A stretch of 25,875 nucleotides of DNA. Origin: a virus. Location of the stretch: positions 1 through 25,875 of the IMG/VR virus record IMGVR_UViG_3300050821_000459; one strand, 5' to 3'. Below the pieces are notes generated by a model. The model was not told where the DNA came from. It was given only the letters and a program-made list of their open reading frames with translations, and did not search any database. Positions 207-23,948 of the stretch are shown in pieces (within the stretch, counting starts at the first letter, position 1; each line of letters begins with the position of its first letter). Position numbers and translations under genes: made by a program.

Positions 207-2112
207 CTAGAATTTGAATGGATTTTTCACGGACATATCAACACCAGTTAACCCCGGTAGGAAGTTTCCTATATTGATTTTAGTGGCGAGAGTTATAAAG
301 GCGTCAGATGTGGCGTCAACTTGCAATATCTTAAACAAGATTCGTTAATTCTTATCCAGTCCTTAGACTGCTATGTATCGCTACATAGAGGAGACTATCT
401 CTTCAAACAATTTTGTTTGCCCACCACTTCCACTCACTTGAGTGTACTCCCTTCCGGGATAGTCGTTACACCTTCCTACTGTTGTAGGCTTGGCTCGGTA
501 TTGTCTCATAGAGAGGTTCACCGAATTCGATGGGTTTATAGACGACCAATGTTTTAAAAATCGTCTTTATTCTTACGGCTTCCGTCAAACTGTTCCAATT
601 CATCGAAATAAACATCATTCCATGAGTCGTCTTCTACATAGTCAATAAGACCAGCTTCGGCTGCGGCTGCGAAGGGTTGAAATCTTACAACTTTAGATTT
701 ATTCGTAGGGCGCATTCTAGCGTAGAAACCTTCGGAAAGAAGCTCTTTAATCATCATCTGGCCCGCAGCCTTACCAGCTTGTCCGGGTTCTTGAGGGAGA
801 ATGATCTGTGTACCATCTGGATCAGACTTTGCAGTATCAAGAATTCTCTGCATTACTTCACCAAACCGAGCTTTAAATCTGACTACATCAACAACAATAT
901 AACGGCCAGCTTTAGTCTTCGCTAATAAAACGCCGGCTGTTGCGTCAGGATTTGGCGTAGCCTCACTGGGGAGCGAGCCTGCAATGTCCCACGCACGACA
1001 ATAAGAAATAATGTTTTGTTCATGTAATCTAATAGGACTACAAAAATCTTTCTTAAAGAATCCGCTAGAAGTTTCTTTTGCATACCACGACCCGAGGTAA
1101 AGCCGCTCCATTTCTACACGGGGCATATTCATGAGTTTATGGGCGTAGGATGGGTCACGGCGGAGCAAAACTGGATTATCGTGACAATTTGCCGGAAGGA
1201 AAACAAATGACATTGGGCCACAGTTTTCACCATAAGTCTGAAGTAATTCTTCTTTAGATTCGGACCATACCATTTTATTATCAATACGAATAAACCACAT
1301 CCGTACACCATCGCGGTCTTTTCGAGGAATACCCCTTTCGTCTAGATAGCCAGCATCTTCTAGCCATTTACGAAGATATGAGTCATAGTCAGGGTTCGCA
1401 GTCATCATCATCACAGGCTTCATCGGAGCTGCTGTACGCATACGGGAGATGAAATAAAGTACCTGAGATTCCTCAAATTGCTGAGCCTCATCTACGAGGA
1501 ATGCACTCACCTGCCAGCCTTGGAAGTTATGCTTATCTTTTTCTTGCTCACAACCTTTACAGACAATAGTAGCTTTATTTGGGAAGATAAATTTACTATC
1601 CTTAACCCGCCACTGTGCTCCAAAAGGTTGATAAATCTCTTGTCCTGTCTCAGCAGGACCACCGGGGCCGGTTACTTGAACCATTGTCCTTCGTAGAATA
1701 ACTCCACGAAACTTTCCCATGGACGGGTCTTGGACCCATTGAAGAAAAGCCATAACACCTAAATAACTCTTACCACTACCCAAATACTTATGAAGTTCGT
1801 TAAACTTCCTCTTATCACTAAGAGAATCGGACTATATCTTCAACCAGTAGGTTGCCCCCCGTTTCGATTGCACTTGCAACCTACTCTACTAAGTTCCGTA
1901 TAAATACGTCTTTTCGATAGTCTCTGAACGTTACTTATTTCTAAGTCTTCGCTGCTGATTGTCTCTGAGAGAGTTCCAGCAATTAGAGGGGTTTAACGCG
2001 ACCCATAGTGTTAAGCCGCGCCTCCGAAGAGGACTATATCATTTTCTGAAACCGCCTTTAGGAAGGCGGCTTGCTTGGCTGAGGCTGGAGCAATAATATT
2101 GTCGTCAGACAT
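207..2112 (-). CDS. terL: Terminase large subunit, three exons split by two group I introns
   Basis: The DNA-packaging motor: an ATPase that pumps DNA into the prohead plus a nuclease that cuts concatemers. Reading leftward, exon 1 is 2112-2014 (33 codons), exon 2 is 1780-560 (407 codons), exon 3 is 323-207 (38 codons plus TAG), giving 478 residues, a normal length. Spliced motifs: Walker A GGAAGSGKS at residues 30-38, Walker B FLVDEA with D130-E131, a TANP coupling motif near 160-163, nuclease motif AWDIAGS with D298, and the C-terminal metal-binding motif DDQVDATSDAF from 439. Without splicing, translation stops after 33 codons (TAA is the first intron codon), and a product that spliced only the first intron would stop two residues into the nuclease motif. 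Start: ATG 2112 (AAGG 12 nt upstream); ATG 2121, in frame three codons earlier, is an alternative. The gene overlaps the preceding endonuclease gene by 8 nt. An unspliced reading starting from TTG at 1783 is an artefact of intron sequence. Confidence 0.93.
324..559 (-). ncRNA. Group I intron in the terL nuclease motif, ORF-less (236 nt)
   Basis: A self-splicing ribozyme between exon base 560 (T) and exon base 323 (C); the last intron base is G (324). P1: exon AGACGAU (566-560) pairs with intron 546-540 through seven pairs ending in the expected U-G wobble at the 5' splice site. P4/P5: UCGGU and ACCGA enclose the phage-type GAACCUCUC..GAGACAAU segment. P6: CCUAC/GUAGG. P7: GACUAUC (464-458) with GAUAGUC (399-393), seven perfect pairs. 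P9-like hairpin CUAUGUA-GCGA-UACAUAG near 388-371. These match the IA2-type core familiar from the T4 td intron. The splice joins GAT to CAA and restores D-D-Q-V-D-A. There is no room for an endonuclease gene inside. Confidence 0.93.
1781..2013 (-). ncRNA. Group I intron in the terL P-loop, ORF-less (233 nt)
   Basis: The second ribozyme in terL, between exon base 2014 (T) and exon base 1780 (G), ending in G (1781). P1: exon CGCGGCU (2020-2014) pairs with 2003-1997 (GGUCGCG), seven pairs ending in U-G. P4/P5: GCUG/CAGC around AACUCUCUCAGAGACAAU, nearly the same segment as in the other intron. P6: ACUUA-GAAA-UAAGU. P7: GACUAU (1922-1917) with AUAGUC (1835-1830). P8: AGUAGGUUGC with GCAACCUACU, ten perfect pairs. 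P9: CUCUUA-GUGA-UAAGAG, followed by GAAGUU/AACUUC. Splicing joins GGCGCGGCT to GGTAGTGGT, giving G-G-A-A-G-S-G-K-S. It shares the core but not the peripheral sequence with the downstream intron, so the two are relatives rather than a recent duplication. Confidence 0.93.
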
Positions 2113-2860
2113 ATCTGCCATTTACCTTATCTAATGCTCGGGCATTAACTGCACCTGCTGACTTATTTTCATACTCAGTCACAAACATGCAAAGCTCTCG
2201 TGAGTACACTTTGTTATCTGGAACTTTTAAATCTTTATCAAGATTGTATTTAAGTCCTGTTTCACTTGCATTCAACCACATTTCAAAGTTTTCAAGTTTT
2301 GAAATGTCAGTAAGAAAGTTTGCAAAGCAGTGCCAACGGGCATCAACAAAGCAACGACCAAAATATCCCATATAATCTTTTGGATTATAGCAACGCTTCA
2401 TCATATTGGACCAAAGTTGTTTGGCTTGTTTCCAATATGGAAGAAGTTCGTACTCCCCAAGATATCCGATACCAAGAAACGTCTTACTATATGGGTCAGA
2501 AATCTTACCTTTTCGTACGTTGTGAATTTCTACTGTAGTTGTGTACCCAGTTTCATTAAATTGGACTACACATTTACTAGCTTTTTTACTAATAATTTTA
2601 CCACTAAATCCTGCATTATTAGTGAAGTCTTCATCCCAAGGTTGCCAAGTGTGTGTTGTACATCTCGGCAGACTAGCGTCTCTAACTTTACCCGCAATTA
2701 TATTTCCGGGTTCAACGACTGTTTCATACCCAGTATTTACAAACCTTACCTTAAGTTTTCTTCCATCATCAGTCCTCCCTAGCACTTCAAAAGTGCCGTA
2801 GCCATTTGACTCATAAAACTGATCATATACTTTACGGTAATTTCCAACTCTGTTAGCCAT
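2105..2860 (-). CDS. Free-standing HNH-like homing endonuclease with tandem DNA-binding repeats
   Basis: 251 residues. Two similar modules can be seen at about 20-60 and 83-125, each with a 'V/VQF-N-TGY-TTVE/V-G-K' pattern (VRFVNTGYETVVE and VQFNETGYTTTVE), as expected of repeated DNA-binding units of phage homing enzymes. The C-terminal part has the arrangement W..M.KRCYNPKD..Y, then W.CFANFLTDI, then LDKDLKVPDNKVYS, then CMFVTEYEN, which I associate with HNH/His-Me-finger phage homing endonucleases. Start ATG 2860 with GGGAG 8 nt upstream. The last 8 nt overlap the terL start. It sits outside both introns but next to the terL exon in which the P-loop intron is inserted, which suggests a link to intron spread. 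Catalytic residues were not confirmed, so family certainty is moderate. Confidence 0.75.
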   Translation of the reverse strand: MANRVGNYRKVYDQFYESNGYGTFEVLGRTDDGRKLKVRFVNTGYETVVEPGNIIAGKVRDASLPRCTTHTWQPWDEDFTNNAGFSGKIISKKASKCVVQFNETGYTTTVEIHNVRKGKISDPYSKTFLGIGYLGEYELLPYWKQAKQLWSNMMKRCYNPKDYMGYFGRCFVDARWHCFANFLTDISKLENFEMWLNASETGLKYNLDKDLKVPDNKVYSRELCMFVTEYENKSAGAVNARALDKVNGRYV

Positions 2861-2894
2861 GTGAATTCTCCCATGCTAGTTAATTAAATTTAAA

Positions 2895-3254
2895 TCAAAC
2901 CTGATTTGTATATTTCAAATACTTACTAGTCAGCAAATTACGATCCCTGCCACTTTCACCAGTAGTATCTTTCACAAGCTTCTTGAACACTTCCCAGTCC
3001 AAAGCTTCCAACTGTTCTTTACTATAAACCAACTGTGTTTTAGGAAAAGGAATAGCCCAAATATGTGGACCCTTATCTTTCCATTCATTCTGAGGATCTT
3101 CACCAATCTCAACAATCATCTCAGCCATTAGTGGGAGTGTCTTCAAAGAAACATACGTTCCTTCTTTATAACGTGCTCCACGAATAATAGCTTCTTGAAC
3201 TCTCTGTAGGAATTCGATTGGACATGTTGCTTGTACATTAATATCTTGTTGCAT
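2895..3254 (-). CDS. Unknown phage protein (119 aa) with 'SGRDRNxLTxKYL' C-terminus
   Basis: No assigned function. 119 residues, soluble, no signal or membrane segment. The C-terminal third (YSKEQLEALDWEVFKKLVKD, then SGRDRNLLTSKYLKY) has the look of a small helical SAP-like or nucleic-acid-binding end found in phage proteins near terminase genes; this is pattern memory, not proof. Start ATG 3254; the Shine-Dalgarno is weak (AAGAGA). A strong promoter (3304-3333) lies just upstream, and the leader folds a GTGGC-AAA-GCCAC hairpin right before the start, so translation may be controlled. The homing endonuclease gene follows after 34 nt. Confidence 0.75.
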   Translation of the reverse strand: MQQDINVQATCPIEFLQRVQEAIIRGARYKEGTYVSLKTLPLMAEMIVEIGEDPQNEWKDKGPHIWAIPFPKTQLVYSKEQLEALDWEVFKKLVKDTTGESGRDRNLLTSKYLKYTNQV

Positions 3255-3303: not shown

Positions 3304-3333
3304 ACTATATCAAACTGTAAGCCATTCTGTCAA
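3304..3333 (-). promoter_or_regulatory. Sigma70-like promoter for the 2895-3254 gene and probably terL
   Basis: On the minus strand TTGACA (3333-3328), an 18-base spacer, then TATAGT (3309-3304). Five of six matches at -10 and a perfect -35. Transcription would start near 3297 and run through the unknown gene, the endonuclease and terL. Confidence 0.7.
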
Positions 3334-4945: not shown

Positions 4946-5266
4946 TTAAATGTCATAATCATATTCTTTTTCTAATCGTTTTAGTTCCAATCTGTATTCG
5001 ATATCATCAATACTGTTTTTAATCTCTAGCCCCGCGTGAGAATCTCCATAATTCTTTAGTGCAAAGTCATCAAGAGAGCATTGTCGGCAAACTCGATTAT
5101 TTACATACCGAAAAGTGACATGACCTCTTGCGCAAGGCTTACCTGTCCAATAAAACTTCAGGTCTGCTGAAACTGCTTGATCCCTTGTAATATGACTATT
5201 TCCAAACAGGCCAGTTGCTTCTTTGATAAACTGCAATAATGTTTCTGTTTTACCTTTACGTTTCAT
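4946..5266 (-). CDS. Small protein with a Cys-His zinc-binding cluster (GKPCxRGH...CRQC)
   Basis: 106 residues. The middle holds FYWTGKPCARGHVTFRYVNN then RVCRQC, a four-ligand C-x3-H-xn-C-x2-C cluster of the kind found in phage endonuclease-associated zinc modules (endonuclease VII-like and HNH families carry similar 'GKPC.RGH' segments). The nuclease residues themselves are not evident, so this may be only a DNA-binding remnant or a separate small protein. Start ATG 5266 overlaps the stop of the polymerase-like gene by 4 nt (ATGA), so translation is probably coupled. Confidence 0.7.
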   Translation of the reverse strand: MKRKGKTETLLQFIKEATGLFGNSHITRDQAVSADLKFYWTGKPCARGHVTFRYVNNRVCRQCSLDDFALKNYGDSHAGLEIKNSIDDIEYRLELKRLEKEYDYDI

Positions 5267-6624
5267 TTCTTATCCACCTTACAAAATGTTTTATCACCCA
5301 ACACAGCTTCCCATGCTGAGTACATAGCCTCTCTTAAGTCATCTTCAGCAGAAGCTTTAACTAAGCAGCTATCGTGATAAGCTAACACTGTATGCCCTTT
5401 AGACCCCATTGCACCAACAATACGCATCATGATTTTACTATCGATGTTTTGCAGAGTAATACCAGCATCCGAAAAGAAATGCTCTGAGATAAAATCATTG
5501 TGACTTTGAACAGCCTCAAGTACAGATGAATAGTCAATGTCCCCTACCATTGCATAGAACTCTTGATCTTCAATGCCGTTCTGAGCACGGTCAATCTTAA
5601 CTTTATTACCAAGTGTCCAAGCTGCGCTATTCTTGTCGTTAGAGTTCATACCAATAAGAATAGCTAATTTAGCTAACTGTCGTACAGGGTTATGTGTCTT
5701 ACCTGTAACAGACTCCCATTGTTCCTTCATGCGACCATCAACTTTGATAAACGAAAGGTCTGCACCATAGGGAGAGAAATCTTCTCCCATTACATCATAA
5801 ATACTGAAGCCATCTGTATTGTACATCATCTGATAGCAGATGCTTGGGTGGATAGCTGAGTAATCCAACTCCACAACTGGCTCACCATCAATCATCAAGG
5901 ATGACGCTCGGATGTGTTGTGGGAGAAGCTGAACTCCACCACCTAGCGTATAGAGACGGCCACCACTCTCCAGATCACCACTAAAGATACGACGGTATGC
6001 AACATCAGCAATAGGACGGCCATCAAAAGTAATTGATGCACCAGCCAACATATCATTCATACTCTTAACCTCACTTTTGATATCTTTAAATCCTTTATGA
6101 CCTCGTGTTGGCATCATATCTTTTGTTTCACGGTCACGAATGATAGCTAGGTCATTATCTTCAAGCTCTTTCCACAAATTGTAGGAAGTATTAACATTCT
6201 CCCACATCTCTTCTGTTCTCTTTTTGAATATCATACATGAAGGAACAGATTCATCAGGAACTAAGTTCCCTTTATGCATCTTCCAAGATTTTACATACCC
6301 TTTGTAAAGGTCAATATACCCTTTAGCCTCAAGGAAGTCAACAAGAGATTTAACTTTCCTGTACCCAATACCTTGCTTTGACTTAGTGTATGCGTGTATG
6401 TCAAGACTGAAGACAATACCTTTAGCATTCTTCTTGACAGCACGGGCAGAGTTAGACACCCACCATCTTACTGCATCTTCCCACTTGTAGTTGGTATGCT
6501 CCATCACTCGATCTACTATCTTCTTGTAGTATTTAGATTCATGGTAATAGATATAGCTTCTTACACACCTGAGATTAACAGAGTAAGCTTGATGTTCTGT
6601 CATGTTACTTAATTCATAGATCAC
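5263..6624 (-). CDS. Reduced family-A-like polymerase palm protein with an N-terminal helical/winged-helix-like region
   Basis: 453 residues. Residues 1-200 look like DNA-binding helices (for example GYRKVKSLVDFLEAKGYIDL near 87-106, a winged-helix-like pattern). From 222 a polymerase-like order appears: GRLYT (222-226), motif A VELDYSAIHP with D254, motif B-like R315-x3-K319 followed by a small-residue/Asn stretch, and motif C AYHDSCLV with H417-D418. Family A polymerases have DYSxxE in motif A and HDE in motif C; here the HDE glutamate is Ser and no separate exonuclease or full fingers/thumb is evident. I recall similar unannotated proteins in phages and mobile elements. Likely role: DNA synthesis or replication start, unproven. 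Start is GTG 6624 with AGGA 6 nt upstream; an internal ATG lacks a site. Confidence 0.65.
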   Translation of the reverse strand: MIYELSNMTEHQAYSVNLRCVRSYIYYHESKYYKKIVDRVMEHTNYKWEDAVRWWVSNSARAVKKNAKGIVFSLDIHAYTKSKQGIGYRKVKSLVDFLEAKGYIDLYKGYVKSWKMHKGNLVPDESVPSCMIFKKRTEEMWENVNTSYNLWKELEDNDLAIIRDRETKDMMPTRGHKGFKDIKSEVKSMNDMLAGASITFDGRPIADVAYRRIFSGDLESGGRLYTLGGGVQLLPQHIRASSLMIDGEPVVELDYSAIHPSICYQMMYNTDGFSIYDVMGEDFSPYGADLSFIKVDGRMKEQWESVTGKTHNPVRQLAKLAILIGMNSNDKNSAAWTLGNKVKIDRAQNGIEDQEFYAMVGDIDYSSVLEAVQSHNDFISEHFFSDAGITLQNIDSKIMMRIVGAMGSKGHTVLAYHDSCLVKASAEDDLREAMYSAWEAVLGDKTFCKVDKK

Positions 6625-11714: not shown

Positions 11715-12449
11715 ATGGCTGCTAAAATAGATTTGACGGGGAAGAAATACAATAGACTTCTAGTAGAAAGCTTTGCAGGCACACGTAGAACGGAGGGTGC
11801 TGGACAATCTATACGAACTTGGAACTGCTTGTGTGATTGTGGTAATCGGATTGTTGTAGATGGGCACGCACTGAAGTGTGATAACACAATGAGCTGTGGA
11901 TGTTATAAGCTAGAAGTTACAACAACACATGGGATGTGGAAGGATAGGTTTTATGGTATATGGGCTGACATGAAGGTAAGATGTGACTGCCCGACTAACC
12001 AGTCTTATCACAGATATGGAGGGCGTGGTATTGGATATCAAGATTCTTGGGTGGATTTCGAAGAGTTTAAATCTGACATGTATCCAAGCTATGAGGATCA
12101 TTTAACACTAGAACGAGTTGATGTACATGGAAACTACTGTATAGAAAACTGTACATGGATCACCAAGGCAGAGCAAGCAAGAAATAAGGGAATGGATGAC
12201 AGAAACAAAACAGGTGTTACTGGTGTTAGGACTTGGGTAGACAAGAAGACATTAGTTAAATATTATGTTGCCGATGCACAAGCTCCTGATGGATCAAGGA
12301 TGTCAAAACATTTTTCTACTGTAAAGTATGGTGAGGAGGGGGCTTTTAATATGGCAGTTGAGCGTAGGAAAGAGTATATTACCCTACTTAATGAACAAGG
12401 TGCCGGATACGGCGAAAATCACGGTACTAATAAAGAGGCTTTCCTATGA
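11715..12449 (+). CDS. HNH homing endonuclease with zinc-like N-terminus and C-terminal AP2 domain
   Basis: 244 residues. N-terminus DLTGKKYNRLLVESF and C-x-CDCG (38-42) with SCGC (60-63) form the usual zinc-type DNA-binding start; then IWADMKVRC, YGGRGIGY, W.DFEEFKSDM and the catalytic segment LERVDVHGNYCIENCTW (132-148), the HNH signature of this family (E-R-x-D-x-x-G-N-Y-x-x-E-N-C-x-W). Residues 165-220 (TGVTGVRTW, YYVADAQAP, HFSTVKYGEEGAF) are an AP2 domain. Free-standing, no intron around it; it sits as an insertion between phoH and the ClpP-like gene, with short spacing to the first and ATGA overlap with the second. Confidence 0.9.
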   Translation: MAAKIDLTGKKYNRLLVESFAGTRRTEGAGQSIRTWNCLCDCGNRIVVDGHALKCDNTMSCGCYKLEVTTTHGMWKDRFYGIWADMKVRCDCPTNQSYHRYGGRGIGYQDSWVDFEEFKSDMYPSYEDHLTLERVDVHGNYCIENCTWITKAEQARNKGMDDRNKTGVTGVRTWVDKKTLVKYYVADAQAPDGSRMSKHFSTVKYGEEGAFNMAVERRKEYITLLNEQGAGYGENHGTNKEAFL

Positions 12450-22862: not shown

Positions 22863-23948
22863 ATGATTGAAAAGTGGAAAGTTGTAGAAGGTTATGAAGG
22901 GAAATACGAGGTCAGTAACTTCGGAGAAGTGAGAAACGTTTGGGACAACGTACCAGTAGCTAAAGTGATTGCTGGTATTCCTCAGTATTGGTATGTGAAC
23001 CTTACACATCCAGATAAGACAAGAGCATTAGTGCGATTGCACCGAGAAGTGGCTAAAGCTTTTATTCCAAACCCTGAAAACTTACCAATGGTTGATCACA
23101 TCGACAGAGATAGACTTAATAACAAACTGTTTAACCTCCGATGGGTAACACGATCTGGTAATCAGCGGAATACAGAAAGGAATAACTATTTTGGGGAGGG
23201 CTTATTACTAGACTATGTGAAGCAGTATGAAAATCCAGAGGCTGCCTATGCTCACATTGACTCAAGTATTAAGTCTGGTCTTACACAGCAAGAGGCTTTA
23301 GACAAATATAGTAAGTACCTTGAGTATGGAAGGAAACAGTTTAAAGTTGAGTGGAATGGTGAAACCGTATACCTAGCAGACTTGTGTGCTAAATATTTGG
23401 TAGAATACGATGCTGTTAGGGACAGGCTCACTCAAGGGTGGGGCATCTGGAATGCTATTTCTAATATCAACCCAAATAACCCTTTCAGTTTTGAAGTTAA
23501 AGGTAAATACGGTGTTGGACACTGGTTCCCTTCAAAGGCCTATTTCAGCAACCTCCACAGTGAATCTCTACTTAAGTACCTTGATGAGGGTCTAGACTAT
23601 GAAGATGTACTGACTAAAGACGGTAAAGATTATCTTAGGCAAACAGTCAGGGGTGTTTATGGTACTGTAAAAGAGTTGTGTGAGCATTTTGAAGTAAGTC
23701 TAAGAGCTGTAGAGACTAATAGGCTTAAGAAAGGTATGACACTAGAAGAAGCTATATTTTCTCCTAGACAGCGAGTTAAAAGGCTTTCAATCAATGGTGT
23801 GTATAACAGCCCAAAATATTGGTACGAGAGTTTTGGTATCAATGCAAAGACAGCCAATAAGTATAAGAGTGATAAGAAGTTAACTTTTAAGGAAACCTTC
23901 GAGCATTATGGTGTGGATACTTCTGAAATGGTTATCTCGATAGTATAA
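22863..23948 (+). CDS. NUMOD4-HNH homing endonuclease with C-terminal DNA-binding repeats
   Basis: 361 residues. NUMOD4 start EKWKVVEGYEGKYEVSNFGE (3-22); HNH domain from about 59 with RLHREVAKAFIPNP, MVDHIDRDRLNNKLFNLRWV (77-96) and TRSGNQRN, keeping the His and Asn-containing core. After 130, four related modules can be seen (starting near FKVEWNGE, FSFEVKGKYG, LRQTVRGVYG and RLSINGVYNS), each ending in a helix with 'G....A/E' and each likely a small helix-turn-helix recognition unit. Free-standing. Not within a visible intron. It has its own TATAAT-like element and intrinsic terminator, so it forms a self-contained cassette at the operon end. Confidence 0.92.
   Translation: MIEKWKVVEGYEGKYEVSNFGEVRNVWDNVPVAKVIAGIPQYWYVNLTHPDKTRALVRLHREVAKAFIPNPENLPMVDHIDRDRLNNKLFNLRWVTRSGNQRNTERNNYFGEGLLLDYVKQYENPEAAYAHIDSSIKSGLTQQEALDKYSKYLEYGRKQFKVEWNGETVYLADLCAKYLVEYDAVRDRLTQGWGIWNAISNINPNNPFSFEVKGKYGVGHWFPSKAYFSNLHSESLLKYLDEGLDYEDVLTKDGKDYLRQTVRGVYGTVKELCEHFEVSLRAVETNRLKKGMTLEEAIFSPRQRVKRLSINGVYNSPKYWYESFGINAKTANKYKSDKKLTFKETFEHYGVDTSEMVISIV

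Follow-up and report, generated by a model that had tools for sequence, protein, structure and literature searches.

An HNH homing endonuclease gene overlapping the start of an intron-split viral terL gene, a probable mobile occupant of an endonuclease hotspot

The window, by which we mean the whole 25,875-nt stretch analysed here (IMG/VR record IMGVR_UViG_3300050821_000459), carries on its minus strand a terL gene interrupted by two group I introns. Exon 1 (2014-2121), of 36 codons, ends with FGGAA inside the P-loop, where intron A (233 nt, 1781-2013) splits the motif as FGGAA^GSGKS, the caret marking the insertion point. Exon 2 (560-1780), which alone matches phrog_979 with E=5e-150, is followed by intron C (236 nt, 324-559; KNKDD^QVDATSDAF), located at the site where the introns of relatives hold an HNH gene, and by exon 3, which includes the stop codon (207-323). 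Both introns were recognized by Rfam RF00028 on the minus strand, at 2073-1808 (88.3 bits) and 615-371 (75.7 bits) against a gathering score of 50, and their boundaries were then refined; splicing in silico yields one continuous large terminase of 481 aa. The longest stop-free stretch in either intron does not exceed 58 codons, which bears out the first-pass annotation of both as lacking an endonuclease. Directly before terL, on the same strand, lies a free-standing gene for an HNH-type homing endonuclease (HE) of 251 aa (2860-2105), assigned by its phrog_2081 match; the range originally annotated, 2013-2860, comprises this gene plus terL exon 1. The HE gene had been described as ending 8 nt inside terL and lying about 90 nt from the P-loop intron, and both figures stand: its stop codon is 91 nt from the 5' splice site of intron A (2014/2013), and the 8 nt are counted from the ATG at 2112 (ATGTCTGA). 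Since a second possible terL start, the ATG at 2121, would give an overlap of 17 nt, the region shared by the two genes spans 2105-2121 (minus strand) at most; the 8-nt overlap is the likelier figure because the close relative L009 retains only the second ATG.

At its other end the HE gene is preceded by a short leader, ACTAGCATGGGAGAATTCAC (2861-2880, minus strand), which contains its own ribosome-binding site, and then by a gene of 119 aa belonging to no known family (2895-3254, minus strand); small genes similar to the latter precede terL in relatives. A sigma-70-like promoter match, TTGACA-18-TATAGT (3304-3333, minus strand; 11 of 12 positions), could serve the 119-aa gene, the HE gene and terL jointly, although it is a consensus match only and the total number of such matches in the region equals the chance expectation. 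A hairpin masking the terL start was also sought, and no unusual structure was seen (z -0.2). From the geometry of the overlap, translational coupling of HE and terL is plausible.

The HE protein matches the phrog_2081 profile, annotated as HNH endonuclease, with E=8e-47, and has weaker matches to phrog_953 and phrog_374, which bear the same annotation; a Pfam scan gave no match above the cut-off, Pfam HNH included, and comparison with solved structures gave none to E<=1. The protein seems to contain the same repeat twice, at residues ~14-65 and ~79-130, ahead of an HNH-like domain; the repeat shows a weak match to Tudor_3 and is present in only one copy in some intron-borne relatives. In a 9-row alignment compared by eye, no invariant histidine corresponding to the canonical HNH catalytic residue was found, and the invariant D208-K209-D210 occupies the position of DHID in HNH_3-type proteins. 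Because the usual catalytic histidine is not visible in this subfamily, activity of the enzyme is assumed here. A search of prokaryote genomes for further members returned 45 pattern matches, among which there were 0 relatives.

Comparison with relatives shows the HE gene to be present in some and missing from others, between genes that are conserved, and its insertion ends to be sharp. Six distinct copies occur upstream of terL, namely that of the window (L008) and those of L009, L010, L011, L012 and L013, with 92%, 87%, 74%, 57% and 57% amino acid identity to the window, respectively, and all six end inside the terL start. The window, L009, L010 and L011 share similar DNA from ACTAGCATGGGAGAATTCAC through the HE stop and diverge on both flanks; in L011 the final stretch of the HE itself diverges as well. 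Between the window and L010, the HE is 84% identical at the nucleotide level, exon 1 is 58% identical, and the rest of terL only ~32% at the amino acid level. The reverse is seen in L016, where terL (93% aa) and intron A (94% nt) are close to those of the window and the HE in the slot before terL is an unrelated phrog_655 protein. As far as contig comparison can show it, then, the HE moves as a cassette bounded by its own ribosome-binding site and its stop codon, the leader forming the 5' end and the overlap with terL the 3' end, and it is replaced by other HE families in close relatives; transfer was deduced from uneven similarity among metagenomic contigs, of which several are short or incomplete. 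An HNH-type gene adjoining terL might also be a conserved part of the packaging machine and no mobile element at all, as exemplified by gp74 of HK97, whose gene adjoins that of the terminase and which cooperates with that enzyme (PMC10448857). Unlike gp74-type packaging proteins, however, the window HE is patchy in its distribution, close relatives either lacking it or having HEs of unrelated families instead; it also has no Pfam HNH match and is related to proteins borne by introns elsewhere in terL. The packaging reading, very improbable on all these counts, is rejected on account of the patchy distribution.

The position before terL is shared with many other endonucleases. In a survey of 66 terL loci, with HE classes assigned by profile on representatives, the preceding gene was very often an HE, and at least eight HE families use the slot: phrog_2081, 953, 655, 681/559 (T5orf172), 374, 99 (HNH_3/AP2) and 59 (NUMOD4) types, as well as GIY-YIG, Endo VII-like and LAGLIDADG types. 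Different HE families also occupy the slot in L034-L037, where nearly identical terL genes, on very short tree branches, are accompanied by three HE families between them and no intron A. Within the wider clade, the stop codon overlapped the terL start in 25 of 30 HEs but in just 1 of the 13 upstream genes of other kinds (Fisher p=4e-6), a count for which start codons were picked by script and in which some loci are related and not all independent. HEs of phrog_374 and phrog_953 even have a common tail, YYGWNK(E/Q), with a stop overlapping the terL start. Our literature search found no paper stating that HE stops frequently overlap terL starts; the region upstream of the terminase genes has been reported as an HE hotspot in HK97-related phages (PMC10448857). 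The layout of the window recurs in independent contigs and in phage ICP1, and is therefore not a chance arrangement. We consider it likely that the HE gene is a mobile, free-standing homing endonuclease occupying a hotspot directly before terL, and that it is only loosely coupled to the introns. A LAGLIDADG_3 protein just before terL in L079 (977-1987) looks intein-like.

It could be argued that such a gene is a decaying HE, an inactive passenger retained only for the tail that supplies the terL translation start, given that the catalytic histidine is not visible and that in L145 evident remains of an HE (E=6e-13) have been kept immediately before a terL that has no intron. This seems improbable to us, as the ORF is full-length in six loci, its HNH-like part is nearly identical in the window, L009 and L010, the gene has a separate ribosome-binding site, and its spread between different terL types looks recent. 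Before terL genes with an intron and without an HE, the remnants found amount to a ~17-nt stretch resembling an HE tail, in L050.

The first-pass annotation had proposed collaborative homing, in which a free-standing enzyme cuts the intronless allele and moves the intron along with itself. The features in its favor are present, namely a free-standing HE, ORF-less introns, an overlap with terL and a layout like those of ICP1 terL and S-PM2 psbA. Relatives do not carry the introns without the gene in all cases, either: five of the six loci with the upstream HE have a P-loop intron, absent only in L010, and in these it lies at GGAA^G except in L012 and L013, where it lies 6 nt upstream at site A' (GG^A(A/M)G). 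P-loop introns in relatives were located by the break in the coding frame, because Rfam misses some, such as that of ICP1 terL. Across the 66 loci, HE and intron occur together in 20, HE only in 16, intron only in 4 and neither in 26, so that 20 of the 24 P-loop introns are accompanied by a slot HE and 16 of the 36 slot HEs have no intron. A pattern in which the intron is rarely without the HE and the HE often without the intron fits HE-aided arrival of the intron, but does not prove it. The Fisher p was 0.0007 for all 66 loci, 0.05 for the wider clade (44) and 0.46 for the near clade (37), values that are descriptive because the larger sets were assembled after the first result had been seen; in tree-based independent pairs the association was not significant (median p 0.25-1). 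Consequently, shared presence or absence of HE and intron A was rejected as a demonstration that the two collaborate, the pattern being not significant once relatedness is allowed for.

In its strict form, collaborative homing would have the HE cut the intronless P-loop, intron A block self-cleavage, and HE and intron A be copied together. Besides the 91-nt distance, the lack of an ORF in the intron and the five of six loci mentioned above, this possibility draws support from ICP1, which has the same layout with a terL intron 6 nt from the intron A site and an ATGA overlap, and from the terL clade of L010 and L011, where all three P-loop introns are accompanied by a slot HE and, among six intronless loci, a full slot HE is found only in L010. 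We nevertheless find it doubtful. L010 combines the HE with an uninterrupted P-loop, therefore the intron is not always needed, and intron A stands beside other HE families in L016, L018, L019 and L020; the association, moreover, is not significant within the near clade or in independent pairs. Between the window and L011, nucleotide identity is 71% for the HE and 80% for intron A, but 54% for the intervening exon 1, which they do not have in common, and 46% for exon 2. With HE and intron alike and exon 1 and terL unlike, each therefore moved, and not visibly as one tract. The layout part of the proposal stands; coupling of this HE to intron A is no more than a possibility.

Although their HEs differ, the window, L009 and L016 have nearly the same sequence over the 40 nt of exon 1 that adjoin intron A, and in exon 2 similarity among the three tends to be higher in the first 50-100 nt than further on. 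L060, which has an HE and an intron at A', differs from its sister L062, which has neither, in that exon identity is 68% beside the intron vs ~82% elsewhere, and the L060 flank matches another intron-bearing phage, a pattern resembling what co-conversion would leave. The P-loop site, which we looked at for immunity of L010 by codon changes, is highly variable among relatives. The divergence of L046 from its near-identical relatives L043 and L047 covers exon 1 and everything upstream and stops precisely at the P-loop intron, which looks like a recombination boundary. In L099 (3094-3804), the P-loop is interrupted by ~700 nt free of stop codons in the terL frame, which may encode an intein at a site used elsewhere by introns.

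The other intron of the window offers a different partner. A profile search for the HE family yielded 31 loci, and in relatives at 45-54% identity a group I intron core lies just 5' of the HNH gene, with the exception of L121 (L113, L114, L117 and L123 were not among the scanned loci). Wherever the host gene was readable, in about a dozen loci, it was always terL and the interruption lay where exon 2 ends, that is, at site C; none of the members in the 31-locus search was found within a P-loop intron. Cultured examples of the site-C intron-borne HNH are the Pseudomonas syringae phages KIL1-KIL5 (Flaumdravirus). Intron C is a serious candidate partner because these intron-borne relatives sit at site C and never at A, and the likelier partner of the HE may thus be an intron 1.5 kb away. 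The HE would be derived from the site-C intron HE, or be its source, and would still cut site C at that distance. Consistent with this, intron C of the window is of the same type and at the same site as that of the KIL phages, ORF-less, and 73% identical at the nucleotide level, the two have similar exon sequence on either side of site C, and intron C is present in 4 of the 6 loci with the upstream HE vs 4 of 31 other near relatives (p=0.013, uncorrected for relatedness). It is ORF-less in the window, L009 and L012, and in L013 it holds a different HE-like ORF. On the other hand, intron C is missing from L010 and L011 despite their upstream HE, the HE tree, which separates upstream and intron-borne members by two changes, leaves the switch between contexts unrooted and its direction not fixed, and only 2-3 comparisons are independent; we hold this reading tentatively, as a possibility that we would not yet expect to prevail. 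Further group I introns are found in the middle of terL (site B, at one position or more) in L010, L020, L021, L112, L115, L124 and KIL (L001). In Vibrio phage K373 (L003 3471-4409), a 32%-identical HNH relative follows the gene for the small terminase subunit; the record opens with terL, annotated as uninterrupted, and this HNH gene stands at its end.

Several known systems can be set beside the window. In the Vibrio phage ICP1, an HE adjoins the N-terminal exon of an intron-containing terL whose splicing has been shown, and such layouts have been ascribed to collaborative homing, with HE turnover proposed as an alternative (PMC10448857). Like the window, ICP1 has a free-standing HE (ORF130) before a short exon 1, with a stop/start overlap (ATGA in its sequence), and an ORF-less intron within the P-loop codons (FYGG^AGGGKS). 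In contrast to the window, ORF130 is of the GIY-YIG/T5orf172 type, the intron is a different one, 6 nt away at site A', and the second intron, at site C, is a feature of the window; the ICP1 intron (L136 24410-24700) gave no RF00028 match even at E 0.1. The type case, the psbA intron of S-PM2 with F-CphI, likewise combines a free-standing HE with a neighboring group I intron gene and has been described as collaborative homing; for that system, measurements exist both of how the intronless allele is cut and of the protection given by the intron (PMC6083498), two properties that are only predicted for the window. F-CphI also belongs to another enzyme family, with an Endo VII motif. The KIL phages share with the window a homologous HNH protein (50-51%; 178 aa in KIL1), a homologous site-C intron and a related terL, but their HNH gene lies within the site-C intron and encodes one N-terminal repeat, and they have no P-loop intron. 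Trans homing by mobE and I-TevIII in T4 indicates that a free-standing HNH enzyme can mobilize a nearby intron that lacks a working HE (PMC2988022); mobE overlaps the upstream gene nrdA, unlike the window HE, which overlaps the downstream gene. The window is a further case of a known layout, to which our analysis adds a connection with the site-C intron family and a count of start/stop overlaps.

If the HE is the mobile hotspot occupant we favor, it would cut terL alleles that lack it, and repair would copy the HE gene in, as in intronless homing. The cut would lie within terL, near site C or near the P-loop, which relatives make about equally likely, and a donor with an intron in the cut site would be shielded from the enzyme, while that intron could be co-copied. 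The two kinds of element recombine independently of each other and come together time and again, forming no fixed unit. After insertion, terL translation would depend on the HE tail because the tail holds the terL start codon, making clean loss of the HE harder. A bolder combination, which we think unlikely, is that one HE family switched between the site-C intron and a free-standing position at the other end of terL, still cutting site C, moving the ORF-less intron from 1.5 kb away and carrying the P-loop intron along, with the slot acting as an addiction site where many HE families end inside the terL start and loss of the tail costs terL translation.

These findings bear on how endonucleases and introns join or separate in the course of intron evolution, a matter on which the collaborative-homing pathway and the HE-turnover hypothesis (PMC10448857) predict different histories. 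In the terL family a single site offers many naturally occurring states, with HE and intron together, either of them alone, neither, or remnants, and one HE family is both intron-borne and free-standing within the same gene. Overlap of the HE stop with the terL start, seen across HE families, could be a simple route by which a selfish gene becomes hard to lose. Elsewhere in the window, a second HE-like HNH gene (phrog_374; 11715-12449) lies between phoH and a protease-like gene, and its end likewise overlaps the start of the gene that follows (TATGAAACAC, 4-nt ATGA, at 12446), a third HE-like gene (22863-23948) has NUMOD4 and HNH_3 domains, and a 453-aa protein of unknown function (phrog_4756, E=3.5e-82) is encoded at 5263-6624.
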